From: Methanofollis ethanolicus
Lineage (GTDB): Archaea > Halobacteriota > Methanomicrobia > Methanomicrobiales > Methanofollaceae
Length of the DNA stretch: 64,000 nt
Assembly: GCF_001571385.1 (NCBI RefSeq)
Contig: NZ_BCNW01000001.1
Span: 2,271,470 to 2,335,469, forward strand
Direction: 5' to 3'
A program made the translations under genes and the position numbers. Shown here in pieces: positions 20,036 to 37,791 of the stretch (its first letter is position 1; each line of letters opens with the position of its first letter). The notes under the pieces are model-generated. The model searched no databases and was not told the origin of the DNA. It saw nothing but the letters and a program-made list of their open reading frames with translations.

Positions 20036-20182
20036 GGGGAAAGGTGAGGCGGGAGGGGTATTAAACGGAGGGGACGGGATGGGGGAGGCGCTCTCCGGCC
20101 AATAGTGGCAGCGTTCACTCGCTGCATGGGACCATCCGACAAATCGGTGAGAGTTATGGCGTGCCCGGGATGTGCCGAATGA

Positions 20183-20189
20183 TTATATT
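20183..20189 (+). promoter_or_regulatory. TATA-like box of the exonuclease gene
   Basis: TTATATT lies about 27 nt upstream of ATG 20216, the spacing expected for an archaeal promoter giving a leaderless mRNA. Only AGGG touches the ATG as a possible ribosome site. Confidence 0.4.
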
Positions 20190-20215: not shown

Positions 20216-20803
20216 ATGTCCTCCTCCCTCCCATTAGATGGCAATGTCCTTGTCATCGACACCGAGACGACAGGCCGGTTCTTGAGCGGAAGGCCTCCTC
20301 CCCGTCTTGTCGAACTTGCATGGGTGCTCTGCGACAGCCAGGGGTTCCTTCTGGCAGAGCATGCGATGACCGTCGTCCCGGAGGGCTTCTCGATTCCCCC
20401 CTCTGCGGTGAAAATCCACGGCATCACAACGGTGGATGCACGCCGGGATGGCATCCGGATCAGGGATGCGTTGATAAACCTTGCACAGGCGGCCAAAAGG
20501 TCGGATTGGGTTGTTGCTCACAACCTTGCCTATGATCGCAGGGTCGTTGCCGAAGAGTGCGAACGGGCGGGGTGTGCCGACCCGCTTGAACCGCTCCGCG
20601 GCTGGTGTACGATGGTGGGGTCTGCCAGGTACTGCGGTATCAGGCGGCAGGGGGGGTACAAGTGGCCGACCTTATCCGAACTTCACCAGGTTCTCTTTGG
20701 GCGTCCCTATGACGGGGCGCACCGGGCGCGGGAGGATGCACGGGCATGTGCCCGGTGTTTTTTTGCTCTGGCGGAGGCGGGCGAAGTGAAAAAGGGAGGG
20801 TGA
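20216..20803 (+). CDS. DEDDh 3'-5' exonuclease (DnaQ-like) at the CRISPR trailer end
   Basis: 195 residues. All DEDDh residues are visible: D15 and E17 (VIDTETTG), D107 (VAHNLAYDRRVV), H169 and D174 (AHRAREDARA). Between them, IPPSAVKIHGITTVDARRDG is typical of DnaQ-family proofreading or trimming exonucleases. The family removes nucleotides from 3' ends; in type I-E systems without cas4, DnaQ-like enzymes trim new spacers to length, and some cas2 genes are fused to such a domain. Here the gene runs toward the CRISPR array from its trailer side, and its TGA (20801-20803) lies inside a degenerate CRISPR repeat. A link to adaptation is inference; DNA repair is the alternative. Confidence 0.85.
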   Translation: MSSSLPLDGNVLVIDTETTGRFLSGRPPPRLVELAWVLCDSQGFLLAEHAMTVVPEGFSIPPSAVKIHGITTVDARRDGIRIRDALINLAQAAKRSDWVVAHNLAYDRRVVAEECERAGCADPLEPLRGWCTMVGSARYCGIRRQGGYKWPTLSELHQVLFGRPYDGAHRAREDARACARCFFALAEAGEVKKGG

Positions 20804-20947
20804 TCCCCACGCGAGTGGGGAACATTTGCCCGAGGACGCAGACGATCGGCGTCCTGATCCGTGATCCCCACGCGAGTGGGGAACATTTCTGTCACATGAA
20901 TTGTCTGTAATCGCACCAGGGTTCAACCCCGAGATATCGGGGAACAT
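20798..20947 (-). repeat. three degenerate CRISPR repeats at the trailer end
   Basis: Three repeat-like units lie at exact 61-nt spacing: 20798-20825, 20859-20886 and 20920-20947. The first two keep the core CCCCACGCGAGTGGGGAACA but differ at both ends (TGAT for TTCAT, final T for C). The third keeps only GGTTCA, a CCCC/GGGG stem and GGGGAACAT, with the loop changed to GAGATATC. The first overlaps the exonuclease stop codon. They are decayed oldest units, separated from the intact array by a further 113 nt without a visible repeat. Confidence 0.85.
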
Positions 20948-21060
20948 CATCCACCCGAACAGAGCAGACGATATCATGTTGGTTATGGTATTTTATGATA
21001 TTTCCTGAGTGGAGAGAGGTGTGTTCTATGGTGGATGTGATGGATTTCCGGCAGCGCAGT
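20948..21060. other. trailer region between degenerate and intact repeats
   Basis: 113 nt without a gene. It contains a weak inverted repeat (ATATCAT near 20974, ATGATAT near 20994) and is AT-richer than its surroundings. At a 61-nt period one repeat would be expected near 20981 but none is visible, so this is lost array or foreign sequence. Confidence 0.4.
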
Positions 21061-24000
21061 GGTTCATCCCCACGCGAGTGGGGAACACATTGGCGCTATC
21101 ACCGCCCACTCCATAGACGCCGGTTCATCCCCACGCGAGTGGGGAACACTCACCAAGTAATCTCAGAATGCGTCTATGGTGCGGTTCATCCCCACGCGAG
21201 TGGGGAACACTCGCGGTGATGCGCCCCCGCAAGCTGATCCATCGGTTCATCCCCACGCGAGTGGGGAACACGCCGTCCGTCCATGGCTGTTCTCCCGGTG
21301 CATCGGTTCATCCCCACGCGAGTGGGGAACACGCAGCGCGGCAACTCCTGATCCGTGCGCTCAGCGGTTCATCCCCACGCGAGTGGGGAACACCTCGGCA
21401 TTTGCGGGCGCTGGCGAAGCGGCTGCGGTTCATCCCCACGCGAGTGGGGAACACAGCGCGAAGGCGATGCACGGAGAGAAATGCAACGGTTCATCCCCAC
21501 GCGAGTGGGGAACACCTCCCGGTCCTCCCCCTCCTGGTGATCCTGGCCGGTTCATCCCCACGCGAGTGGGGAACACACGTTCTGCGTGAAGAAGGACGAT
21601 GAACTGCTCGGTTCATCCCCACGCGAGTGGGGAACACCCCCGATCCCCGGGGACTCCCCCGAGGCGTCATCGGTTCATCCCCACGCGAGTGGGGAACACG
21701 TGCCGACCGTCAGCCCCATAGGGAGGATACCCGGTTCATCCCCACGCGAGTGGGGAACACGACCGCTTCGTCATTGAGAAGAATGTCGTTCTGGGTTCAT
21801 CCCCACGCGAGTGGGGAACACGACCGCTTCGTCATTGAGAAGAATGTCGTTCTGGGTTCATCCCCACGCGAGTGGGGAACACCCAGGAATTTCTTTCCTG
21901 AGAATCATGGACAACGGTTCATCCCCACGCGAGTGGGGAACACGAATAGCTGGGTGGCGCATCTAGGTGCTACAACGGTTCATCCCCACGCGAGTGGGGA
22001 ACACTTAATGCGGTGGTCTGGAAAAATCACTATCGTCGGTTCATCCCCACGCGAGTGGGGAACACCATCGACCTCCAGATATTTCCACCACACCCCTCGG
22101 TTCATCCCCACGCGAGTGGGGAACACCACACCCAGCACAAAGGGAATGGGGGGGTATACGGTTCATCCCCACGCGAGTGGGGAACACCTCAAGGTCCGCA
22201 ACCTGACCGCGCTCCGGGGCGGTTCATCCCCACGCGAGTGGGGAACACCTGGACGGGGGCGAGTTCACCGTCAAGGGGAACGGTTCATCCCCACGCGAGT
22301 GGGGAACACACCTCGACCAGATCGCGGACCCGGCATACGATCGGTTCATCCCCACGCGAGTGGGGAACACTAAGGTGGGAGCCTTAGCGAGCCAGTTCTT
22401 CTCGGTTCATCCCCACGCGAGTGGGGAACACTCACTGAGGAGGAGTTCGCGGGCGTTGACGACCGGTTCATCCCCACGCGAGTGGGGAACACTCTGCCGC
22501 TGGAGCGACGCGTACGTCCGGGACCGGTTCATCCCCACGCGAGTGGGGAACACTGTGTGCGGGTGTGGGCGATGATCGCCGCTTCCGGTTCATCCCCACG
22601 CGAGTGGGGAACACTTCGGCGGCGATCAGGTCCGGGTGCAGGTCCTCGGTTCATCCCCACGCGAGTGGGGAACACTTCTCCATGATGAACCGATAGAGGG
22701 GGTCGCTGGGTTCATCCCCACGCGAGTGGGGAACACTAGTGTCGTCCTCTGCCTCTACCCCCTCGTCCCGGTTCATCCCCACGCGAGTGGGGAACACTGC
22801 TCCAGTGCCGGTGCCACCTGATCGCCACGAGGTTCATCCCCACGCGAGTGGGGAACACCTCCAGCCACTCCCGCAGGGTCCGGCCGGTCTCGGTTCATCC
22901 CCACGCGAGTGGGGAACACGAATGCGCCGACGTGGTGCACCTCCCCCTTCTCGGTTCATCCCCACGCGAGTGGGGAACACGCAGGTCGTCGACGAACTAA
23001 CCCTCTAACTATCGGTTCATCCCCACGCGAGTGGGGAACACCCCTTCAGGGACCACTCGACATTCCAGCGGGCCGGTTCATCCCCACGCGAGTGGGGAAC
23101 ACTTCGTGAAGGAGCCCGGGGAGGTCTGGAAAAAACGGTTCATCCCCACGCGAGTGGGGAACACTCAGTGGCAGTGGCGCACACCTGATCCCCTCTCGGT
23201 TCATCCCCACGCGAGTGGGGAACACGGTGGCTTCGGCGGTCTTGGTGTCCCGGGCGACGGTTCATCCCCACGCGAGTGGGGAACACTCAGGTCCCTCGAT
23301 CCGGTAGCCGTTGGCATACGGTTCATCCCCACGCGAGTGGGGAACACCGGCCACCGACGCCGAGAAGGCACAGGCGAGGCGGTTCATCCCCACGCGAGTG
23401 GGGAACACGGCTTGTCGCCCTCTCCCTCTGTTTTCGGTACCGGTTCATCCCCACGCGAGTGGGGAACACGCTCCGGGGGCCCGGCCCGGGAAGAGCCGGA
23501 CCGGTTCATCCCCACGCGAGTGGGGAACACCAGACCGCCGTGTGCAGGGTCGAGTACTGATCCGGTTCATCCCCACGCGAGTGGGGAACACTCGATATCG
23601 ATCTGCTCGAACCGGTGCTCGACCGGTTCATCCCCACGCGAGTGGGGAACACCACGGCTGCAGGATCAGAAGAGGGGATGATCACGGTTCATCCCCACGC
23701 GAGTGGGGAACACATGCCCGAAGACATCGATGACCAGAGCCGGGCCGGTTCATCCCCACGCGAGTGGGGAACACTCCTCGAAAACAGCCGGGCAGATATC
23801 GAGGACCGGTTCATCCCCACGCGAGTGGGGAACACGGCGGGTCGGTGAACCTCGGGAACTACGAGAGCGGTTCATCCCCACGCGAGTGGGGAACACAGGA
23901 TCCGCACACGCGTGCGCAGGGGGAGGGGCGGTTCATCCCCACGCGAGTGGGGAACACGCAGGTATGCAAGCGCCTTCAAGACCCCGGTGCGGTTCATCCC

Positions 24001-27000
24001 CACGCGAGTGGGGAACACTCTCTTGGTGCGGGTAAAAAAGAGAATTAAATCGGTTCATCCCCACGCGAGTGGGGAACACGTTTTTCATTGCTGTAAATGG
24101 CCGTCTCAATTCGGTTCATCCCCACGCGAGTGGGGAACACATCTGCAAGCGCTGTTGAAAATGCCTCTGTTCCGGTTCATCCCCACGCGAGTGGGGAACA
24201 CATTATCCCAATCGTATTTATTTCCGGCGTAATCGGTTCATCCCCACGCGAGTGGGGAACACATGAGTTACTCGACATCGTCGCTCACCTCTCTCGGTTC
24301 ATCCCCACGCGAGTGGGGAACACGAATTGAGGAAAAAGAAGAAGAAGAACGTGTCCGGTTCATCCCCACGCGAGTGGGGAACACCATCGACCTGTCGACC
24401 ATGTCGTCGGCCGAATCGGTTCATCCCCACGCGAGTGGGGAACACATGAAAGGAATGGAAATGACGGTGCGTGTATCCGGTTCATCCCCACGCGAGTGGG
24501 GAACACCCGGAAATAACAGACCCGGCAGCGGAGGTCATCGGTTCATCCCCACGCGAGTGGGGAACACGGTGCGCTCCCGGCCCGGTCGCCCTGGAGGACC
24601 GGTTCATCCCCACGCGAGTGGGGAACACACCCGACAACACTTGCATTCAGGCACCCCCGGCGGTTCATCCCCACGCGAGTGGGGAACACTTGCCCGCGCC
24701 CCTCCCTCGGCCCCGTCTACCCGGTTCATCCCCACGCGAGTGGGGAACACTCTTCTTCTTCTTTTTCCTCAATTCCAAACGCCGGTTCATCCCCACGCGA
24801 GTGGGGAACACATTGACCTCGAAAAACAGAAACGGGATGATTGCGGTTCATCCCCACGCGAGTGGGGAACACCAGTGGAGTAAGTCCTTCCGTTCTTGCG
24901 TTCTCGGTTCATCCCCACGCGAGTGGGGAACACGACACCGGCGGCAGTCTTACGTATGTCTCCGCCGGTTCATCCCCACGCGAGTGGGGAACACGACACC
25001 GAGAAAATCGATGTGGTGGCGCACGCCGGTTCATCCCCACGCGAGTGGGGAACACTAGAAGAGATGCTGCAAGAGGCAGAGATTGCCCGGTTCATCCCCA
25101 CGCGAGTGGGGAACACCTCAGGGTAGAGACGACGGGCGCCGTGAAGTCCGGTTCATCCCCACGCGAGTGGGGAACACTCCTGTAATTTACGCTAAATCCA
25201 ACGGTAAATCGGTTCATCCCCACGCGAGTGGGGAACACTTGCTCTGACGTATAAAGGGCTGTTTCCGGTTCGGTTCATCCCCACGCGAGTGGGGAACACA
25301 AATCTGTTTTACCGAGTTTTGCAGCCGAAAACGGTTCATCCCCACGCGAGTGGGGAACACCGGCTCCACAACGCGTGACGGATAAGGAGACTCGGTTCAT
25401 CCCCACGCGAGTGGGGAACACGTTCAGCCGCCCGACTCGCCCACACCCACCAACGGTTCATCCCCACGCGAGTGGGGAACACCCTACCGTTAGCGTCTGG
25501 TCGCCTATCTGCACCGGTTCATCCCCACGCGAGTGGGGAACACAAGACCGCAGCGTTCTACCCTCAGGCTCAGGACGGTTCATCCCCACGCGAGTGGGGA
25601 ACACTGTGGGATCGTCGATGGAAAACGAGGCGATTACGGTTCATCCCCACGCGAGTGGGGAACACCCACCCAACGCCCTGAACACAATCTCGTCGTTCGG
25701 TTCATCCCCACGCGAGTGGGGAACACTCCCTGGATCTCGTCGATCAGATCGTCCATGTCGGTTCATCCCCACGCGAGTGGGGAACACGCAGGGTTTCCGG
25801 GCCTCTCGGCTCCTGGTCGAGGTTCATCCCCACGCGAGTGGGGAACACTTGCAAATCTCGACGCCGGAAATATCGCAACGCGGTTCATCCCCACGCGAGT
25901 GGGGAACACTTATCGTATATCGTCTCTGGCGTGGACGCGCCCGGTTCATCCCCACGCGAGTGGGGAACACCGACCCCTGAGGGGCACGATGCGTGCCTCG
26001 GACGGTTCATCCCCACGCGAGTGGGGAACACTTTCTATCTCAGAGGTTAAAGCGGATTTGTACTCGGTTCATCCCCACGCGAGTGGGGAACACCCCTACC
26101 AACGGACACGATGGTTTTTTGACACAGGTTCATCCCCACGCGAGTGGGGAACACCACCTTCCAGTGCCCCATGGCGTGCGCCACCACGGTTCATCCCCAC
26201 GCGAGTGGGGAACACGGGTCGTTGAGCCGCACGAATCCGGATATCCTCGGTTCATCCCCACGCGAGTGGGGAACACACCTCATGACTGTGAGTGCATCCT
26301 CCCGGGACCGGTTCATCCCCACGCGAGTGGGGAACACTCAGATCCATCCCCAGAAAAAGAGGAGGGAATCGGTTCATCCCCACGCGAGTGGGGAACACTC
26401 ATACAGGTCATCAATGACCTCAGAAAGTCTCGGTTCATCCCCACGCGAGTGGGGAACACAGTGCGTTCCACGCGGTAACTCCGTCGCCGATCGGTTCATC
26501 CCCACGCGAGTGGGGAACACGGGCCGTAAATATCGCCTTGTCGTGCCCAGGCCGGTTCATCCCCACGCGAGTGGGGAACACGAGCCGGAGGCTATCTAAA
26601 AAACCAGAACTGTCGGTTCATCCCCACGCGAGTGGGGAACACCCGATGCCCATTGCCCCAATGCCGGACTCGGCCGGTTCATCCCCACGCGAGTGGGGAA
26701 CACTGCTAAACGGCGTTCTCCAGATATCGTATCTCCGGTTCATCCCCACGCGAGTGGGGAACACTATCTGCGTCACAGTGTTCCCCCATCAATGTCCGGT
26801 TCATCCCCACGCGAGTGGGGAACACGACCGAGTTCTGGGCCTCAGATGGTGCGGTCGTGGTTCATCCCCACGCGAGTGGGGAACACAATCGGTGAACATC
26901 AAGGACGTTGGCGGGGTACGGTTCATCCCCACGCGAGTGGGGAACACTGCCCCCACAAGTTCGTTGTAACAGTCGAATACGGTTCATCCCCACGCGAGTG

Positions 27001-29021
27001 GGGAACACATACCACCGTGAAAAGAATTGGGACATGCTAACGGTTCATCCCCACGCGAGTGGGGAACACTTGCCGTGCAGTCTGATTTTTGACTTGGCAG
27101 TCGGTTCATCCCCACGCGAGTGGGGAACACTTTTCCTGAAACTGCCTAAACGTTTTAACCGCCGGTTCATCCCCACGCGAGTGGGGAACACCTCAGAGAG
27201 GTTAAATGAGGAAACAATAGCGTCGGTTCATCCCCACGCGAGTGGGGAACACACCTCGATCGCCCTGCAGGGACACTACTCTGACGGTTCATCCCCACGC
27301 GAGTGGGGAACACTTCAGATATCGGTTCTGAAGTTTCGATTCAACCGGTTCATCCCCACGCGAGTGGGGAACACACAGGGTTTTCAGGCACCGGGTGGAT
27401 GCATCTCGGTTCATCCCCACGCGAGTGGGGAACACTCGGAAGAGTCGGCCGATGCAATCATGAACGCCGGTTCATCCCCACGCGAGTGGGGAACACTTTG
27501 AACACACCTTCACTCCGTCGGTTGAATTCGGTTCATCCCCACGCGAGTGGGGAACACGTTGTATTCGTTCCGGTAGCCTGTTTTCTCTACGGTTCATCCC
27601 CACGCGAGTGGGGAACACCTCTGCAGGGTCGATGGCGAGACCGCGTATGCAGGTTCATCCCCACGCGAGTGGGGAACACGCCTCCTTCAAGATGAACAGG
27701 CCGTCTTTCGCCGGTTCATCCCCACGCGAGTGGGGAACACCTCCCGTCTTGTCGTCTTACCATGGGTCTTTTCGGTTCATCCCCACGCGAGTGGGGAACA
27801 CCCTCTCGATTGCCTGTGCACGCTGCGGATAGTCGGTTCATCCCCACGCGAGTGGGGAACACGCCCTCCGGAAGAAGCAGGCTCTGCCTCGTCACGGTTC
27901 ATCCCCACGCGAGTGGGGAACACGTCTGCTGCGAGGGGGGTAAACCGCTATCGTGCGGTTCATCCCCACGCGAGTGGGGAACACCACAACCCCCTCGGCG
28001 TCGAAGCCCTCGTGATCGGTTCATCCCCACGCGAGTGGGGAACACCGATGCTGGTTCTCTCTGGTGTGTTTCGGATGCGGTTCATCCCCACGCGAGTGGG
28101 GAACACTAGAATGGATGCAAAAGGAGTTTCTCGGACCGTGGTTCATCCCCACGCGAGTGGGGAACACGGCAACATGTTCCGGCCCCAGACTCAGACTCAC
28201 GGTTCATCCCCACGCGAGTGGGGAACACTTATACAGCGCTGCAACCTGGACAGCACTAACCGGTTCATCCCCACGCGAGTGGGGAACACTCGGACGCCAC
28301 GGCCCTTTGCCCGGTGGATCTCGGTTCATCCCCACGCGAGTGGGGAACACGTTCGGACGGGCGCGCAGGGTGCGACGCACGCCGGTTCATCCCCACGCGA
28401 GTGGGGAACACTTCTGGCGGGTCTCGTTGCGGGACTGACGGATCGGTTCATCCCCACGCGAGTGGGGAACACGGCTGCGACTACCCCGGCGCGGGGTAAC
28501 GCGTCGGTTCATCCCCACGCGAGTGGGGAACACGGGGTTGGAATGTGTCCCGATCCAGACTCTGGAGGTTCATCCCCACGCGAGTGGGGAACACTCCTGA
28601 GCGACGGCCTTCTGGTACGCCACTCCCGGTTCATCCCCACGCGAGTGGGGAACACAGTGCGTTCCACGCGGTAACTCCGTCGCCGATCGGTTCATCCCCA
28701 CGCGAGTGGGGAACACTTGAGGGCTGGAACGGCTCAGCCTGGGCAGCGCGGTTCATCCCCACGCGAGTGGGGAACACCGCTCTACAACCTGTTAAGGGAC
28801 GATGATGATCGGTTCATCCCCACGCGAGTGGGGAACACTCGCCCGGGCGGATCGCAAGACCTCCCCAGGTCGGTTCATCCCCACGCGAGTGGGGAACACG
28901 GACCAGGTTATGTGTATTGAGCATTTCCAGGCGGTTCATCCCCACGCGAGTGGGGAACACCTTTCTCGAGCTGGGTGATGGCACGGTCCCGCCGGTTCAT
29001 CCCCACGCGAGTGGGGAACAC
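21061..29021 (-). CRISPR. type I-E CRISPR array, about 131 repeats and 130 spacers
   Basis: A 28-nt repeat recurs every 61 nt (rarely 62) from 21061 to 29021. All copies I read are identical. In the transcribed (minus) sense it starts GTGTTCCCCACTCGCG and ends GATGAACC, with a CCCC/GGGG stem; this is close to the E. coli I-E repeat. The base after it is G in crRNA sense at all but about eleven junctions, as when the last repeat base comes from the PAM. Orientation is set by the repeat sense, the worn units at low coordinates and the cas2-side leader. Spacers are mostly 32-33 nt. Two spacers occur twice, and two others are reverse-complementary over 25 nt. Newest spacers should be those near 29 kb. 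Confidence 0.98.
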
Positions 29022-29151: not shown

Positions 29152-30329
<1,178 letters not shown>

Positions 30330-30342
30330 GGGGTTCGCCCCC

Positions 30343-31029
30343 TCACACCGGCCTGATGAGCAACAGACCGCACCCGAAACTCTTCGCAGGCCCCATCCCC
30401 CCATACAGGGTCTGCTCGAAACGGTCGGGATCCGTCACCGTCAACACACCGGCGAAGTCGATGGTGCTGATCGACATCCAGGTTTTACCCCTCGGTTTCT
30501 TGAAGCGGTGCTTCTGATAGCCGTCCGCACGGACCATCTCTTCATCCACGGCAAAACCCGCCGTCTCGGCCCGTGACGTCAGCCAGGATAAGCCTTCTTT
30601 CTGGACAAGCGCCGCCTGAGAGAGCATGACGTCAGGCGGGCACCCGGACTGCTCCAGCAACACCTTCGCGTCCATCACCACGTCATGGCGGTGCTGTCTC
30701 CCGTCGTCGTCCCGCTTCGCCCGGATCGGGTTCGCCCGCAGACTGAACCCGAGGCGCTGCCCCGTCCTGAGTACAGGCGCGTACTCCTTCCGCTCGACCG
30801 CCCAGATCCCGTCGCGGTCCACCGGGTCCGCCGTGGAGACCGCATAGATCACCGGGGACGACTCCTGCATCTCAAGCCGGTAGATGAAGTCGCGGTCCTT
30901 CCGTGCACCGTCCGAGAAGACCCGCCACACCATCCCGTGGACATCATAGGGGCTCCGCACACTCCGCCAGAAGGCCGGTGTCCGCTCGACGTCCTCCCTC
31001 AGGCGGATGCGGTAGAAATAGTACTTCAT
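30343..31029 (-). CDS. cas6e: crRNA-processing endoribonuclease Cas6e (CasE)
   Basis: 228 residues from ATG 31029. Starts MKYYFYRIRLREDVER, then SPYDVHGMVWRVFSD, whose His matches the catalytic His near position 20-26 of Cas6e. The C-terminal glycine-rich loop is GMGPAKSFGCGLLLIRPV. Cas6e cuts the array transcript in each repeat below the CCCC/GGGG hairpin and stays bound to the crRNA 3' end in Cascade. It overlaps cas5e by 4 nt (ATGA). Confidence 0.95.
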   Translation of the reverse strand: MKYYFYRIRLREDVERTPAFWRSVRSPYDVHGMVWRVFSDGARKDRDFIYRLEMQESSPVIYAVSTADPVDRDGIWAVERKEYAPVLRTGQRLGFSLRANPIRAKRDDDGRQHRHDVVMDAKVLLEQSGCPPDVMLSQAALVQKEGLSWLTSRAETAGFAVDEEMVRADGYQKHRFKKPRGKTWMSISTIDFAGVLTVTDPDRFEQTLYGGMGPAKSFGCGLLLIRPV

Positions 31030-31778
31030 CGCACCGCCTCCGGCACGCGCACCAGTGCGCCATACTCCTTTCTTTCGGCAAACTGCCACTGCCGCCTGTT
31101 CAGCGCCACATCACGCCTCCTGACAGTCTGCCTGCCCTCCGCCTCAAAGCCGGTCTCGTCCTCGCCTTCCCAGAAGAGCATCCCTCTCTCTTCCCGGGAA
31201 AGAGGTTTGAGCATCTCCTGGTCCGGGAAGGCCGCCGCTTCCATCGCTGCACGCAGATTATCCGCCCGGACCACCTGCGGTTGCAGGGGGAGGAAGACCG
31301 GACAGGACTTCCGCCCCAGATAGGGTACAAATGTCGGACCCCTGAGCGCCTCCGCAAGTGCGGAGAGGGGATAGGGCGTGGCGTCATGCGCCGGCCAGAG
31401 GCAGACCGTGTACAGGGCGTCGCAGAAGTACTCCCGCGTCGAGAGGATCGTGTTCAGATCATCCCGGGGAAGACTCACCTCCTCACGTCGGGTGGCAAAC
31501 GGCCAGGCCTGCTTCTTTGTCGTCTCGGAAGGCACCTGGGTGGTGTGATAGTCCCGAACCAGGTTTCCGGGAGCATTCACCAGTGCGGCCATCCGGTAGC
31601 TCTCCTGCAAACGCTTCAGTGGTGCTGTCTCCTCACGGCGGATGCCGAGAGCCGCCGCCACCAGCCCGAAGACAGCCGAGCGGGAGGGGTGGCTTTCCGC
31701 AGGTCGGTACTCTCCGACCGCCACCCCGCCCCAGGCCGCCATCGGGCCGCAGAGTCGGAACAGGAGATACTCAGGCAT
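31026..31778 (-). CDS. cas5e: Cascade subunit Cas5e (CasD)
   Basis: 250 residues from ATG 31778; upstream extension lies inside cas7. Begins MPEYLLFRLCGPMAAWGGVA then GEYRPAESHPSRSAVFGLVA, the Cas5 N-terminal RAMP motif followed by the conserved PTKS/HPSRS-type segment. Cas5e caps the 5' handle of the crRNA in Cascade. Start overlaps the cas7 end by 8 nt and the end overlaps cas6e by 4 nt, so all are translated together. Confidence 0.93.
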   Translation of the reverse strand: MPEYLLFRLCGPMAAWGGVAVGEYRPAESHPSRSAVFGLVAAALGIRREETAPLKRLQESYRMAALVNAPGNLVRDYHTTQVPSETTKKQAWPFATRREEVSLPRDDLNTILSTREYFCDALYTVCLWPAHDATPYPLSALAEALRGPTFVPYLGRKSCPVFLPLQPQVVRADNLRAAMEAAAFPDQEMLKPLSREERGMLFWEGEDETGFEAEGRQTVRRRDVALNRRQWQFAERKEYGALVRVPEAVR

Positions 31779-32898
31779 GGTCACCCGACACAAATTCGAG
31801 GATCTCGTCGAGCGTACCCGTGCCGGCACCGGCGTTCATCGTCCTGCACTCCCGGGCGCATGCCCCGTAGGTCTTCTCCATATTTTCCCGCGTCACTTCG
31901 AGGGCGGCCACCGCTGCCTTCAGGTAATCGTCGCCCCCGACCGGCTTGAGGAAGGCCACCGAGAGCGACCTGGGCTGCTGGCTCCCCCGTTCGGCAAGGA
32001 GGTAGGAGGCGTAGGCCCGCGAAGCGAAACTGTTCTGTTTCCCTTTCGGCCCGACCTTCGCCGCCGCCTCGGTGAGGGAGCGGATGGCTCTGTCGACCAG
32101 ATCCTCGTCCCCACCCAGGTTTTCCACCAGGAGGTCGCGGTTGATACAGAGATAGGCATAATAGAGACCGGCCGCAAACTCCGCCTGGCCCACATGCCCG
32201 GCACCGACATCCTCGACGCCGCGGTTGAGGTCGTCGACGGCGGTGAAGTAATCGTCCTCGACCGCCACCCGGTGGACCGTGACCGCGTGGGCCACCTGGA
32301 CCGCCGCCTCGCAGTTGAAGGACGGCGACGAGGCAAGCATCCGGCCGAACATGGCGATGTCAGCCGCCGAGTTCTCCTCACGCAAGAGTGCGAGGTCGTT
32401 CTCTGACGGGTCTCCGCCGCTCTCAGCAAGGTGCGCGAGCAGACCGTCGATCGCCACAATCTCGTCCGGGCTGAAATGGACCATCTGCTCGACACAGAGC
32501 GAGTCTTTCTTGTCCTTCTCGGTCGTGACGGATTCGATCTTCTTCAACTTGCCAAAGACGGCGGCGATCGCCTGGCCCCACGCCACCGCCTTCTTCTCCT
32601 CCACAGGGGACCGCACCGCCGCCGCATCCTTTCCATCGACGACATCGGCAAGCGCCTTCCCGCCCCGGAGGGCGAGGTAGATGTTCCAGCCCATCTCCTT
32701 GGTGCGGACACCGAGGTGGCCGCCGAGCGCCTCCTTGAATATTTCGGATGTTCTCCACGCCCTCTTCAGGCTCTGTGACGACACCCGCAGACGGTTGACC
32801 CCGCCCATCATCGCGGTCTTCGGCCTGCCCATGTCGTCACGGTTCAGGTTCGACGGCGGATACGATACAAGCATATGCAACTGGATAAATTCTGCCAT
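31771..32898 (-). CDS. cas7e: Cascade backbone subunit Cas7e (CasC/Cse4)
   Basis: 375 residues. It begins MAEFIQLHMLVSYPPSNLNR followed by DDMGRPKTAMMGGVNRLRVS, the Cse4/CasC signature (G-x-K-x-A-x-x-GG-x-R-R-x-S-SQSLKR). Six copies form the crRNA-binding backbone. A GAGGTG ribosome site lies about 6 nt upstream; the gene is 9 nt after cse2. Confidence 0.95.
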   Translation of the reverse strand: MAEFIQLHMLVSYPPSNLNRDDMGRPKTAMMGGVNRLRVSSQSLKRAWRTSEIFKEALGGHLGVRTKEMGWNIYLALRGGKALADVVDGKDAAAVRSPVEEKKAVAWGQAIAAVFGKLKKIESVTTEKDKKDSLCVEQMVHFSPDEIVAIDGLLAHLAESGGDPSENDLALLREENSAADIAMFGRMLASSPSFNCEAAVQVAHAVTVHRVAVEDDYFTAVDDLNRGVEDVGAGHVGQAEFAAGLYYAYLCINRDLLVENLGGDEDLVDRAIRSLTEAAAKVGPKGKQNSFASRAYASYLLAERGSQQPRSLSVAFLKPVGGDDYLKAAVAALEVTRENMEKTYGACARECRTMNAGAGTGTLDEILEFVSGDHA

Positions 32899-32907
32899 TT
32901 TTTCACC

Positions 32908-33426
32908 TCATTCTTTTTTCGTCGGGATGTTCATGTAATACGCTTCTGCCCAGTCTCTTTTCGTCTGGGGGTTCCAGCGGTACAGTCCCCACACCAGGTC
33001 GGGGATGTTTGCCGTGCGGTCGAGCATGCGGACCAGCCGTTTCATCATCGGGAAGAGTTCGGCATAGTCGTAGTCTTCCACGCGGAGAAGGCGGCGGAAC
33101 CGTGCCTCGCTCACCCGCGGTGTGGTGCCGCCGTCTTTCGGGCGGGCGAACTGCTCTGCAAGTCGGACACCCGCTGCAGGTGTCTCGACATCCGCGAGGA
33201 CGCCCGCGATCACGGCGAGTTTTTCCCGGTCCCATGTCGGCAACGCCGCTTTCAGCCGGTAATACGCCGGGACAAAGGCCACCTCGGCGGGCGTGCGGCA
33301 CCGCCGCAGTTCTGCCCGGTCCCCGCGGTGGCGGGGGTCCGTGATATCGTCCCACCAACCGCGGATCGCAGCCATCGGATCATCCTTATGGTCCCCTCCA
33401 TGCACAGGGGTCTGTGTCATCGTCAT
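32908..33426 (-). CDS. cse2: Cascade small subunit Cse2 (CasB)
   Basis: 172 residues, alpha-helical. It carries GWWDDITDPRHRGDRAELRR, which fits the Cse2 start (W-x2-L-x5-RG-x-R-A-x-LRR), and RFRRLLRVEDYDYAELFPMM near residue 110. Two copies stabilise the R-loop in Cascade. The ATG overlaps the casA stop (ATGA). Confidence 0.93.
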   Translation of the reverse strand: MTMTQTPVHGGDHKDDPMAAIRGWWDDITDPRHRGDRAELRRCRTPAEVAFVPAYYRLKAALPTWDREKLAVIAGVLADVETPAAGVRLAEQFARPKDGGTTPRVSEARFRRLLRVEDYDYAELFPMMKRLVRMLDRTANIPDLVWGLYRWNPQTKRDWAEAYYMNIPTKKE

Positions 33427-35024
33427 TTCTCACCTTTTCCGGATTTTTTCTGGTCCGGGAGGCGGAGTGCTTTCCAGACCGCTTTGTTCGACTTCGAAGC
33501 AGAGCTGTTCAGCAGTCCCCACGCCTTCACCGTCCGCTTTGCATTGATCTCGTCGATGGCATCGAACTGGGAGTACTCACTGAAGAGGGCCTTCGCCTTC
33601 TCCTGAAGAACATCCAGCCATGCCCGCCTGATCGCGAGCGTGTCCCCACCATCGGCGAGGGCCGCGGCGACGTCGCCGAGCATGGTGTAGAAGTCCTTCT
33701 CCGTCGCCTGGAGAAAACGGGCGGTGACGACCGAGAGATCGCCCTTCGCATCGGCAGGATTGTCGTAGAGGGCGACCTTCACGCACCACTGGACGTTCTT
33801 CCCCATCTCCGAGGCGGCCTTGATCATCCCTGCGGCCGTCTCCTCGAACTCCTCTTTCACGGCGTCGTCGACCTGGAAGAGGGGGAGGGTACCTTCGTAC
33901 CAGCACCGGGGTTTTTTGTTGTCCATGTCATAGCCAAAGGCCCAGAGGGACGGTCTTCGTCCGAGCAATTCACGAACACGGCCGTACTCGGATCTTTCAT
34001 TGACAAAGAGCGCGGTCGTCCTTGCGATCTGCTTTCCCTCCTCCTTATCGTTGATGACCAGGCCAAGCCAGTTCTGGTAGGTGATCCCGCCGGGCTGAGG
34101 GTGGACCGGCAGAAGTTCGGTGCTGTTTTTTCCGTTCCGGTAATACGGGCTGAGAGGATGGACCCAGCCGGCGTACTTCGTGCCGTAGGGTTTTGTCCAG
34201 AAGGACCTGATGCAGTGGTCAGTCTCGGCGCCGCAGAGATCGCAGGTTCCCGGTCTCGCCCCCCCCAGGTCGAGCAAGATCCGCCGCGGCAACCCCCAGA
34301 AGACCTGACAGGGATGGGCATCCTCCGGCGTTGTCTTCTCCCCGTTCTCGCTTGTCCGCACCTTGCCCATCCAGGGAAAGAGGCGTGCGTCGTCCGCGAC
34401 CGGAGGGTCGTCCACGGCGTGGGGGTAACTCTCCAGGTCGACGACATTCGCCCAGACCGTCTGCCAGAGTGTCTTCCCAAGGATAAGCGTGGTCATCGGG
34501 CCACCACCCCTGACCGAGGTCATGTGCCCGCGCCCCCCGCTCGGAGCATTGGTCTGAAGAGTGAAAAGGCCGAGGGCGGCACAGCGCGGGCAGAGTCCGT
34601 CGATCGTCCCCCGTTTCTGGAACCAATCCGTGTTGTCCTTGATCTTTTCTTTCTCGGGCAGACCAATGAGCAGGCTGTCAATCTGCCAGACCTTCTTATC
34701 CTCGATCCCCTTCTCCTGCATGAACTGCGGGCCGTCTCCTCCAATGGCAAACGCCCCGGCGAGGGGCGAGAAGGCGGTCTTCAGTTCGTCTGCGGTTGGC
34801 GGATCGGTCAGGCGTTTTCTCCACTCAGTTCTGTCCTCCGGGGGGAGAGCAGTCTGGCAGAGTCCGATCAGGAACTGCACCAGCGCCCCGTCGAAGTCAG
34901 GCCGCGGAGACGCTACCGCGGAGACGGTGGTGTCGGTGATCTGCCAGGGTGCGATCGTTTTCGCACTGCCGTCCTGGCATGTGATCGGGATCCAGGGGTT
35001 CTGGATCAGGTTGAGAGAGGCGAT
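33423..35024 (-). CDS. casA: Cascade large subunit Cse1 (CasA), apparent ATC start
   Basis: 533 residues if it begins at ATC 35024. The N-terminus SLNLIQNPWIPITCQDG is the conserved Cse1 start, and the protein continues VASPRPDFDGALVQFLIGLC, then PSGGRGHMTSVRGGGPMTTL and the C-x2-C pairs CPRCAAL and CDLCGAE. A perfect AGGAGG (35031-35036) lies 6 nt before the ATC. There is no ATG, GTG or TTG in frame between the upstream stop and GTG 34880; that GTG would remove 48 residues including NPWIP. Cse1 recognises the PAM and recruits Cas3. The start may be a rare AUC codon, a frameshift from the upstream small frame, or a sequence error. Confidence 0.92.
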   Translation of the reverse strand: MASLNLIQNPWIPITCQDGSAKTIAPWQITDTTVSAVASPRPDFDGALVQFLIGLCQTALPPEDRTEWRKRLTDPPTADELKTAFSPLAGAFAIGGDGPQFMQEKGIEDKKVWQIDSLLIGLPEKEKIKDNTDWFQKRGTIDGLCPRCAALGLFTLQTNAPSGGRGHMTSVRGGGPMTTLILGKTLWQTVWANVVDLESYPHAVDDPPVADDARLFPWMGKVRTSENGEKTTPEDAHPCQVFWGLPRRILLDLGGARPGTCDLCGAETDHCIRSFWTKPYGTKYAGWVHPLSPYYRNGKNSTELLPVHPQPGGITYQNWLGLVINDKEEGKQIARTTALFVNERSEYGRVRELLGRRPSLWAFGYDMDNKKPRCWYEGTLPLFQVDDAVKEEFEETAAGMIKAASEMGKNVQWCVKVALYDNPADAKGDLSVVTARFLQATEKDFYTMLGDVAAALADGGDTLAIRRAWLDVLQEKAKALFSEYSQFDAIDEINAKRTVKAWGLLNSSASKSNKAVWKALRLPDQKKSGKGEK

Positions 35025-35107
35025 AGTGCACCTCCTATAATCTCACCACATATTTTTGCCATTGATCCACCTATGAGAAGTGCATCCAATATATACCTGT
35101 CGATCAT
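35006..35107 (-). CDS. 33-codon open frame between cas3 and casA
   Basis: The ATG at 35107 overlaps the cas3 stop (TGATG), so it would be translationally coupled. It reads MIDRYILDALLIGGSMAKIC, then GEIIGGALSPLST. It ends at 35006, overlapping the casA 5' end by 19 nt in another phase. No homologue is recognised. It may be a real leader peptide that carries ribosomes to casA, the N-terminal half of a frameshifted casA, or chance. Confidence 0.4.
   Translation of the reverse strand: MIDRYILDALLIGGSMAKICGEIIGGALSPLST
35031..35036 (-). promoter_or_regulatory. Shine-Dalgarno site of casA
   Basis: AGGAGG on the minus strand with 6-nt spacing (TGCACT) to ATC 35024. It is the strongest ribosome site in the cas operon and points to translation beginning at this non-standard codon. 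Confidence 0.7.
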
Positions 35108-37791
35108 CAGGAATCCCTCCTCAGTCCGATGGTCGGATCGTACCTCAAGACAATCTTTTTTCCAGAACAGGTCCGTGCCGACCCTTCCCACGCCTCGCCG
35201 ACCGGGCGGAGCGGGACGATCACGACATCCTTTCCCCTGCCGCCCATCCGCACCCTGGCCTTCTCCACCGCTTCAGCAAGCGGGGGGGCAAACTCTGCCT
35301 CCCCGGCCACATACCTCTCCCTCACGCTCACCTGACTGAGATCCCAGGCGATCCCGGGGTCGGGGAACTCCGCCCAGGGCCGAACCTGCTCGGCGTCCCA
35401 CCGGGCAAGTCGCACCGTGACAGTCGGTTCACCGAGGCGAGTCGGTGTCCGGACGTCGCTTGCCCACAGCCCTTCGGTCACCATGTATCCCTTCTTCAAC
35501 TTCAGGGCGTTTTCCGCTGCAAACGCGGCATCGGCATTCTCTTCGCCTCGCACCTGTGCGGCCGCCCTCCTGAGACCGTCAGGGATGGCGGCCTCGCTCT
35601 CCGGCCCGAACACCCGTTCCACAAGGAGGCGGGCATCGCGGGGGACGACAATCTCCCCCGCGTCGCCGAGGACCCTGGCCGTCAGCCAGAGGCGGGCGGG
35701 ATCGGGGTACACCCGCGCACCCCCGGGGAAGAAGGCCGAGTACCATTTCTCGTCGGGATCGTCGGTGACCGGGGGGGAGAGGACAAGAAGGCGGGCCTCC
35801 CCGCGGGGGCCGCGAGCGTGGCGGTGAACACGCCCGGCCCGCTGTATCAGACGGTCCACCGGCGCGAGGTCGCTGACCATCAGGTCGAAGTCGAGGTCGA
35901 GGGACTGCTCCACGACTTGCGTCGCGACGAGGACCTGCCCGGCCCTGACCTCTGGCGTACTCTCCTTTCCAAATGTATCTGTCACCGATTTTTCGATCTG
36001 AAGACGGTCGGCGAGGGCGAACCGGGCATGAAACAGGCTGACCGTGCCCACCGGCAGTGCCTCTTTCAGCCGTAGATAGGCCCTCACCGCATCGTCCACC
36101 GTGTTCCTGACCCAGCAGGCGCACCCACCAGAACGGGTGGTCTCGATCAGCACCTCTTCCACTTCCTCCACCGATGCGATGAACCTGACCGCGACGCGTT
36201 TCTCCCTGTCATCGGTGAAGGAGTGTTCGTCAGGCGGCCCGGCGGACGAAAGATGGGTGAGCAGAGGATAGGTGCTCGACCCGAGGGAAGGCACCGCCCA
36301 TCCCGCCCCGCGCGCGAAACTGCGGGCCAGTTTTTCCCGCTGCTGCTGCGTCATCGTGGCCGAGAGCAGGACCGCACTGCCACCGAACGCGGCATGGAAC
36401 TCAAGAAGTCTCTGGAGCAGTTCGTGCATATAGCGATCACAGGCATGCACCTCGTCCACGACGAGGACGTTCCTGGCCAGCCCGAGCAGTCTGAGCGACT
36501 GGTGCCGCACCGGAAGGATGGAGAGGAGCGCCTGATCGATGGTCCCAACGCCGACCTGCGCGAGCAGGGCTTTTTTCCGGTTGTCTGAGAGCCATGCCGC
36601 CCCCGCGTCACCGGGACCGGCCCCGCCGCGGTTTGTCCCTCCGTCAAGGAATGTCTGCATGACCTTGTAGAGACGGTTGGCAGAGTGGGCAAGGATCCGG
36701 GAGTATGAATCATCTTCAAACAGAGCGTCCGACGTCCTCATGATCCGGGCATACATGGCATTGGACGTCGCCATCGTCGGGAGAGCAAAGAAAATACCCT
36801 CCCCGGCTCCCTGCGCCATCAGGCGGTGGGCAAGGGTGACGGCGGCCACCGTCTTCCCGCTGCCCGTGGTGTCCTCGATGATAAAGAGATGAGGACCGGT
36901 CCCGATAGGGCATTCGGCACAGTAGCGCTGGAGATCGGTGGGCGTATTTTTTGGGAATGTGTCGGGGAAAAGTGTTTCGAGCCCCTGCTCTGCGGAGGGC
37001 CGTGCCGGTATGACGCCTTTTTCCCGGACCGCCTTTTCTGCTTCACGCAATGCCGTCTTCCAGTATTCCCGGAGAGGGACCTGGTCCTGACGGGCGCGGA
37101 AGTACTTCTGGTCCGATCCGATCCAGTCGCAGAGAGTACAGAACCCGGCAAGGAGCCATGAACAGAGTGCGGTTCGTTTTGCAGGGCGGTCTTCGGCGGG
37201 GAGAGGCACCGGCCCGTCGCCGAAGAAGAGTGCGGCAGAATCCCGAACGAATTCTTCCGCCGCCTCGATATCGGCCGGAAGGAAGGAACGCCCGATCAGG
37301 CTGACATCCTCTGGCGGGGTACCATGATGGCCGCAGACGGCCTTGAGAAGGGGAGACATAATTTCCCACCATTCGTCGGGATCGATCCCGACGCCAAAGG
37401 ACAGCAGACCTTTGCAGCCTCTGTCGTCCCGGATGTGATCTTTCCAGAGGGCAAAACCCAGGTCCGTGTGGTAGCCGGGGAGGCATGCGCCTTCCGCACC
37501 CTGGAGGGATCGCGCTACTGAGGGCTCCATCAACTGGAAGGCAGGCGTGGAAAATTTTCCGATGTCATGGGTGGCGAGCAGGAAACAGGCGAGGGGAACG
37601 ACCTGAGGTGCGGGAACCTGCAGAGCGTTTGCCATGCGGTCCTGCAGGAGGGCGTCGGCCCCGAGGACCACAGAACCGACTGCGGCCACATCGAGGGCAT
37701 GGTAGGGCAGGAGGTGGACGGTGTGCGGGTCGTTCTCCGTCAGCCCCTTGCCCCAGTACCGGAAATACGAGGGGGGGAAGGAGGAATTCAT
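35107..37791 (-). CDS. cas3: CRISPR effector nuclease-helicase Cas3, type I-E
   Basis: 894 residues with N-terminal HD nuclease and superfamily 2 helicase domains. HD motifs are HLLPYHALDVAAVGS near 26-40 and LATHDIGKFS with H75-D76. Walker A is EDTTGSGKTVAAVTL near 305, the DEAD-like box is LVVDEVHACDRYMHELL, motif III is LLSATMTQQQREKLA, and motif VI is DLAPVDRLIQRAGRVHRHAR. Cas3 is recruited by Cascade and degrades target DNA. It is the first gene of the cas operon; the promoter lies upstream at 37.8-37.9 kb. Confidence 0.96.
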   Translation of the reverse strand: MNSSFPPSYFRYWGKGLTENDPHTVHLLPYHALDVAAVGSVVLGADALLQDRMANALQVPAPQVVPLACFLLATHDIGKFSTPAFQLMEPSVARSLQGAEGACLPGYHTDLGFALWKDHIRDDRGCKGLLSFGVGIDPDEWWEIMSPLLKAVCGHHGTPPEDVSLIGRSFLPADIEAAEEFVRDSAALFFGDGPVPLPAEDRPAKRTALCSWLLAGFCTLCDWIGSDQKYFRARQDQVPLREYWKTALREAEKAVREKGVIPARPSAEQGLETLFPDTFPKNTPTDLQRYCAECPIGTGPHLFIIEDTTGSGKTVAAVTLAHRLMAQGAGEGIFFALPTMATSNAMYARIMRTSDALFEDDSYSRILAHSANRLYKVMQTFLDGGTNRGGAGPGDAGAAWLSDNRKKALLAQVGVGTIDQALLSILPVRHQSLRLLGLARNVLVVDEVHACDRYMHELLQRLLEFHAAFGGSAVLLSATMTQQQREKLARSFARGAGWAVPSLGSSTYPLLTHLSSAGPPDEHSFTDDREKRVAVRFIASVEEVEEVLIETTRSGGCACWVRNTVDDAVRAYLRLKEALPVGTVSLFHARFALADRLQIEKSVTDTFGKESTPEVRAGQVLVATQVVEQSLDLDFDLMVSDLAPVDRLIQRAGRVHRHARGPRGEARLLVLSPPVTDDPDEKWYSAFFPGGARVYPDPARLWLTARVLGDAGEIVVPRDARLLVERVFGPESEAAIPDGLRRAAAQVRGEENADAAFAAENALKLKKGYMVTEGLWASDVRTPTRLGEPTVTVRLARWDAEQVRPWAEFPDPGIAWDLSQVSVRERYVAGEAEFAPPLAEAVEKARVRMGGRGKDVVIVPLRPVGEAWEGSARTCSGKKIVLRYDPTIGLRRDS

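Follow-up and report, generated by a model that had tools for sequence, protein, structure and literature searches.

We found that a stand-alone DEDDh (DnaQ-like) 3′-5′ exonuclease gene meets the trailer of a type I-E CRISPR array in the window (the whole 64,000-nt stretch of DNA analysed, from the 2.71-Mb Methanofollis genome G000), that its association with type I-E systems recurs across species, and that, by analogy with known systems, the encoded protein is probably a dedicated accessory of the cassette that trims the 3′ ends of prespacers bound by Cas1-Cas2. Arguing for this role are a complete active site and fold, selection on the gene, recurrent linkage, and the lack of the gene in relatives whose CRISPR systems are all of other types. 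A sequence-only reading of the same DNA had suggested a dedicated trimming enzyme; that interpretation is partly supported, largely as an association, and the association itself is much stronger than the sequence of the window alone could show.

The locus is a complete type I-E CRISPR-Cas system, with the full gene set and an I-E repeat. About 131 repeats with the consensus GGTTCATCCCCACGCGAGTGGGGAACAC make up the array (21061..29021, crRNA strand minus), which has its first canonical repeat at 21061, its leader at the right end, and units that are nearly all 61 nt long; one spacer, GACCGCTTCGTCATTGAGAAGAATGTCGTTCTG, occupies two adjacent units (21761-21793 and 21822-21854), a tandem repeat-spacer duplication. 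The cas operon runs from 37791 to 29152 on the minus strand in the order cas3-cas8e-cas11-cas7-cas5-cas6e-cas1-cas2, comprising cas3 (35107..37791; PADLOC Cas3e, 2.2e-199), a block with cas8e, cas11e, cas7e, cas5e and cas6e (30343..34880), cas1e (29433..30404; TIGR03638, 3e-112), and cas2e (29152..29445; PF09707, 1.1e-34, and TIGR01873). Since the leader is at the cas2 side and the crRNA strand is minus, the exonuclease gene (20216..20803, plus strand) runs toward the trailer, as had been read from the sequence, and the array end that it faces is the old, leader-distal one. The further claim that cas4 and a Cas2 fusion are lacking is correct for the I-E operon, which has no cas4 and no Cas2-DEDDh fusion (Cas2e is 97 aa in the window and 96-131 aa in the relatives examined), but elsewhere the genome encodes four Cas4-family proteins, and at least two of these adjoin other Cas1 genes away from the I-E locus. 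Two Cas4-Cas1 pairs are located at C1:1416753-1418190 (L176) and 1444772-1446393 (L177), the latter with an array that has about 68 repeats (GTTTCAATCCACGCACCCGCGAAGGGTG), and a further Cas1 gene, at 2259689, is found about 11 kb to the left of the window.

By residues and fold, the 195-aa product is a member of the DEDDh / DnaQ-like exonuclease superfamily. It matched Pfam RNase_T at 2.4e-9 and, as its best profile, PADLOC PDLC01247 DEDDh ("CAS associated") at 4.5e-24 over residues 12-182, a match that is weak alone because the profile also scores general DnaQ proteins in control genomes. The DEDDh motifs are D15/E17, D107, H169 and D174, and all five catalytic residues are invariant in every full-length I-E-linked copy. 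The AF2 model (pLDDT 92.9) has an RNase H-like exonuclease fold, for which Foldseek returned TREX1/TREX2, ExoI and DNA polymerase exonuclease domains as the nearest solved folds (E about 1e-10). A profile search identified it as the sole PF00929 (RNase_T-family) protein of its genome. A housekeeping DnaQ, that is, a replicative proofreading subunit (DnaQ epsilon), was rejected on patchy distribution, half of the near-complete Methanofollis genomes being without an intact copy, and on the NCBIfam DnaQ models, every one of which scored far under its cut-off. The gene is under purifying selection, with dN/dS of 0.14-0.30 across pairs of four Methanofollis copies. It probably has its own promoter, judging from a TATA-box-like stretch, TGATTATATT (20180..20189, plus strand), about 30 nt 5′ of the ATG, and from similar AT stretches at the same distance in G003 and in the congener G009 (record JASGMW010000070.1).

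Within Methanofollis, the gene goes with type I-E rather than with CRISPR in general, since all 12 genomes carry Cas1 genes, mostly non-I-E. Among the eight assemblies of at most 20 contigs, four (G000, G003, G006 and G011) carry the exonuclease as well as Cas8e and share the order of cas operon, array and convergent exonuclease with arrays of 33 to about 367 repeats, and neither is intact in the other four (G001, G002, G004 and G005). A service to CRISPR adaptation in general was thus rejected within the genus, where genomes with other Cas1 genes and no Cas8e are without the exonuclease. The presence/absence rule is weakened by two fragmented assemblies, G008 and G010, which have Cas8e but no exonuclease match. 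Decayed copies were also observed: a broken pseudogene (L027:8963-9271) with a single orphan I-E repeat in G007 (81% complete, no Cas8e found) is a relic of the same locus, and a fragment in G002 resembling about the first 25 exonuclease residues is probably, from its sequence, another. That such relics occur where the cas operon is missing, and that the gene is absent from Methanofollis relatives without I-E, speaks against the exonuclease being a general 3′ exonuclease or repair enzyme that travels on a mobile cassette and has no CRISPR role, an explanation that we consider improbable.

For a broader comparison, 232 Methanomicrobiales genomes were surveyed, with Cas8e detected in 42 and an exonuclease relative in 67. 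The expected neighborhood of exonuclease and I-E array was found in the four Methanofollis genomes named above and at about 20 further Methanomicrobiales loci, so that the association recurs across species and the gene has the adjacency of a CRISPR-associated DEDDh. Two arrangements account for nearly all cases: convergent at the array trailer (13 loci), and co-directional with cas3, 60-360 bp upstream of it (9 loci, "upcas3"), with one further case, G115, in which the gene is downstream of the array and oriented like it. In Fisher tests that ignored genome kinship, association with Cas8e was seen for the upcas3 clade (8 of 8 genomes, p = 6e-7) and for the trailer clade (p = 3e-6), but not for unlinked DEDDh clades (p = 0.29). 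No exonuclease relative was detectable in 15 of the 42 Cas8e-bearing genomes, some of them near-complete (G154), and an HMM of the exonuclease family found no other DEDDh genes beside the I-E loci that lack it.

Placement beside cas3 rather than cas1-cas2 at nine loci counts against a trimming role, and would suit an enzyme of interference or primed adaptation that degrades or tailors the 3′ ends of Cas3-released DNA, feeding adaptation indirectly; there the two genes, co-directional and 60-360 bp apart, apparently form one operon. We nevertheless think this reading rather unlikely, as the window and 12 other loci have the exonuclease at the trailer, far from cas3 and separately transcribed, and structural and biochemical precedent places DEDDh on Cas1-Cas2 (PMC10284694). 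Retention of an intact gene in three genomes without Cas8e (G023, G024 and G092) is a second point against the accessory role, and these copies, outlasting cas loss beside orphan I-E repeats, are what a passenger without CRISPR function would lead one to expect. All the same, the trailer clade does not show the gene at random sites in CRISPR-less relatives, the outcome that the sequence-only reading would have taken as contrary to its proposal: four members without an adjoining cas operon (G092, G023, G024 and G213) keep 2-3 I-E repeats beside the gene, and G087, with neither cas operon nor I-E repeats there, is the exception; in two further members with no cas operon alongside, G009 and G071, the locus ends at a contig edge. 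The coordinates of intact copies that have 2-3 orphan I-E repeats but no Cas8e in the genome are L103:9449-9537, L105:10397-10485 and L090:9203-9291.

In the phylogenetic tree, the trailer exonucleases form one clade of 21 (support 99/96), most upcas3 genes fall in other clades, and more distant, unlinked DEDDh paralogues form separate clades. From this topology, in which deep branches are weak, DEDDh proteins appear to have been taken up by type I-E systems on at least two occasions. Linkage arising in at least two separate clades is again at odds with a mere passenger, as is the retention of a separate unlinked paralogue in G168 and G195, each of which has one I-E-linked and one unlinked copy; other archaeal DEDDh clades being unlinked, and the family likeness to bacterial proofreading exonucleases, some of them N-terminal in 1,400-aa proteins, speak for it. 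Sequence comparisons indicate that the exonuclease tracks the cas cassette, not the host. Genus g11 harbors two different cassettes, each with its own exonuclease: G082 and G058 share 53% identity in the exonuclease and 42% in Cas8e, whereas the values for G082 against G122, which belongs to another family, are 84% and 79%, and although the G122 contig could be mis-binned, the contrast within g11 stands regardless. Across the trailer set, exonuclease and Cas identities correlate (r = 0.78-0.89). The exonuclease is the outermost conserved cassette gene, as no gene beyond it is common to the Methanofollis loci fetched. Among 28 bacterial loci with relatives of the gene, none was beside a type I-E system, and several of these relatives continue into proteins of about 1,430-1,460 aa. 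In the bacterial relatives at L070-L088, mostly from Saprospiraceae, N stands in the alignment consensus where the third catalytic D and the H would be expected, for which reason they may be inactive homologues. Unlinked DEDDh paralogues (L121:9107-10572 and L136:9534-12009) lie close to a conserved protein that begins MAELDPFF..INSWSFTKHRVWNRCQRQYYFEYIAPY and may be a PD-(D/E)xK nuclease.

The closest functional model is the type I-E Cas2-DEDDh of Megasphaera (PDB 8FY9-8FYD), a fusion whose same-class exonuclease serves a Cas4-less I-E Cas1-Cas2. This enzyme shortens the 3′ overhangs of prespacers bound to Cas1-Cas2 and takes off the PAM end once half-integration has occurred; the authors of that work describe stand-alone DEDDh exonucleases as widespread ancillary components expected to act likewise in trans (PMC10284694), and PMC10504553 gives further mechanistic precedent. 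The window's Cas2 matches the Cas2 part of this fusion, but its exonuclease is a separate gene next to a 97-aa Cas2, and direct sequence kinship with the fused DEDDh domain of 8FY9 was dropped after no match was found at E 0.01. The same role in trans is the best explanation because Cas4 and a fusion are both missing from the cassette and G000 encodes its Cas4 proteins elsewhere. Acting like the fused domain, the stand-alone exonuclease would chew prespacer 3′ overhangs on Cas1-Cas2 back to the Cas1-Cas2 ruler length, the PAM end would be trimmed last, after half-integration, and the outcome would be uniform 33-nt spacers (61-nt units). Cas4 likewise processes prespacer ends, in other subtypes, but has an unrelated fold. 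E. coli DnaQ and ExoT resemble the window's enzyme in being separate polypeptides with proposed 3′ trimming of Cas1-Cas2-bound DNA, and differ in being housekeeping, unlinked to cas and dispensable in vivo (PMC9699676), in contrast to a cassette-linked sole RNase_T protein. Deletion of both left prespacer ends unchanged and lowered adaptation only about twofold (PMC9699676), which cautions against assuming a strong effect of the exonuclease here.

Spacer lengths agree weakly with prespacer trimming and are at most suggestive. Units other than 61 nt made up 30 of 1607 (1.9%) in exonuclease-linked genomes and 20 of 404 (5.0%) in unlinked ones (pooled Fisher p = 0.001), but the per-genome Mann-Whitney comparison was not significant (p = 0.12), and spacer-length precision was therefore not upheld as proof of trimming. 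The enzyme is not indispensable, since the 15 I-E genomes without the gene still have arrays of about 92-93% 61-nt units. An RNA substrate was also considered, on the view that an RNase T-like enzyme shortens crRNAs or clears away the tail of the array transcript that runs antisense. RNase T was indeed the best, though weak, match in a single-sequence PDB search, and the convergent geometry yields antisense RNA; however, type I-E crRNAs are not known to undergo 3′ trimming after Cas6e, the upcas3 copies have no convergent geometry, and the nearest folds are mostly those of DNA exonucleases, all of which makes this reading very improbable.

The exonuclease gene and the array are physically joined. 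As the sequence-only reading had it, the stop codon TGA (20801-20803) is within the first degenerate repeat, GGGTGATCCCCACGCGAGTGGGGAACAT (20798..20825), which matches the consensus GGTTCATCCCCACGCGAGTGGGGAACAC at 25 of 28 positions. A second degenerate repeat (20859..20888) matches at 23 of 28 and a third (20920..20947) at 20 of 28, followed by a conserved AT-rich trailer motif, AGACnATATCATnTTGnTTATGGTATTTTATGATA (20966..21000), that lies between the hairpins described below and the array in an alignment of G000, G003 and G009. An exact 28-bp duplication (20800-20827 and again from 20861) at 61-nt spacing adds one extra repeat-spacer unit of 61 nt at this array end in the window, which G003 and G009 do not have; a spacer may have been inserted off-site into the terminal repeat, or the others may have lost a unit. 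Exact 28-base copies at 61-nt spacing, together with a junction that recurs in related species, show that the degenerate repeats are not a chance likeness.

Upon comparison between species, the terminal degenerate repeat turned out to be conserved and not a product of random decay. It holds a hairpin (CCCCAC-GCGA-GTGGGG, 20805-20820) whose general form is TCCCCAC-loop-GTGGGGAA, with a variable loop of 3-4 nt. The exonuclease TGA is directly joined to this hairpin in G000, G003, G009 and G092 and a few nt away in G122, G082 and G069; in G006 the final codons of the gene contain the hairpin, and another copy follows 60 nt on. In G011, an insertion of about 600 bp parts gene and hairpin, and the hairpin has stayed with the array. 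The 12-nt stem shows no difference among the eight species listed before G011, with exonuclease proteins only about 50% identical between families, and the 3-nt-loop form, sought in 14 genomes, occurred eight times, each time at the exonuclease/array end, and never in genomes without that locus. Random decay as the sole account of the terminal repeat was rejected on these grounds, the stem being constant, the loop variable, and the 3-nt-loop form found nowhere else in the genomes searched. About 62 nt beyond, the third repeat holds another hairpin (CCCCGA-GATA-TCGGGG, 20927-20942) common to G000, G003, G009 and G122, the G009 copy showing a paired change (CCCTGA..TCAGGG). Terminator-like patterns numbered 5 in the junction region against 0.8 expected for a generic pattern, and the junction matched no known RNA family in Rfam. 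An array transcript running antisense into the exonuclease gene, as earlier proposed, follows from the geometry, but the conserved junction hairpin may block it. Our best guess, from the sequence, is that this hairpin forms a boundary for the two convergent transcripts or serves as a site for Cas6e; the exonuclease's 3′ end would then meet the oldest array repeat at what is now a conserved hairpin, probably marking that boundary. More tentatively, and less likely than not, the oldest repeat could have become a selected boundary hairpin, possibly a Cas6e cleavage site or bidirectional terminator, that parts pre-crRNA from the exonuclease mRNA and so couples the trimming enzyme's expression to the processing of crRNA.

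The stand-alone CRISPR-linked DEDDh class is already catalogued (PADLOC DEDDh; PMC10284694), and the window's protein resembles its members in profile match over the whole domain (PDLC01247), in size, and in adjacency to cas genes or arrays. It differs in belonging to archaeal type I-E systems, in its conserved position, convergent at the trailer or upstream of cas3, and in having its stop codon inside the terminal repeat; no description of the trailer arrangement was found in our searches, which covered open-access literature. As far as our searches show, the new elements are the order-wide linkage in two arrangements in methanogens and the conserved gene-array junction hairpin. The exonuclease speaks to the question of which enzyme makes prespacer 3′ ends in vivo in Cas4-less type I-E systems. 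The E. coli candidates are redundant housekeeping exonucleases (PMC9699676), and here deletion or reconstitution would be informative without redundancy because the protein is the sole RNase_T protein, linked to the cassette, and absent from relatives without I-E. The linkage suggests more than one recruitment of trimming nucleases by archaeal I-E cassettes, and the conserved terminal-repeat hairpin points to a boundary element of the array.
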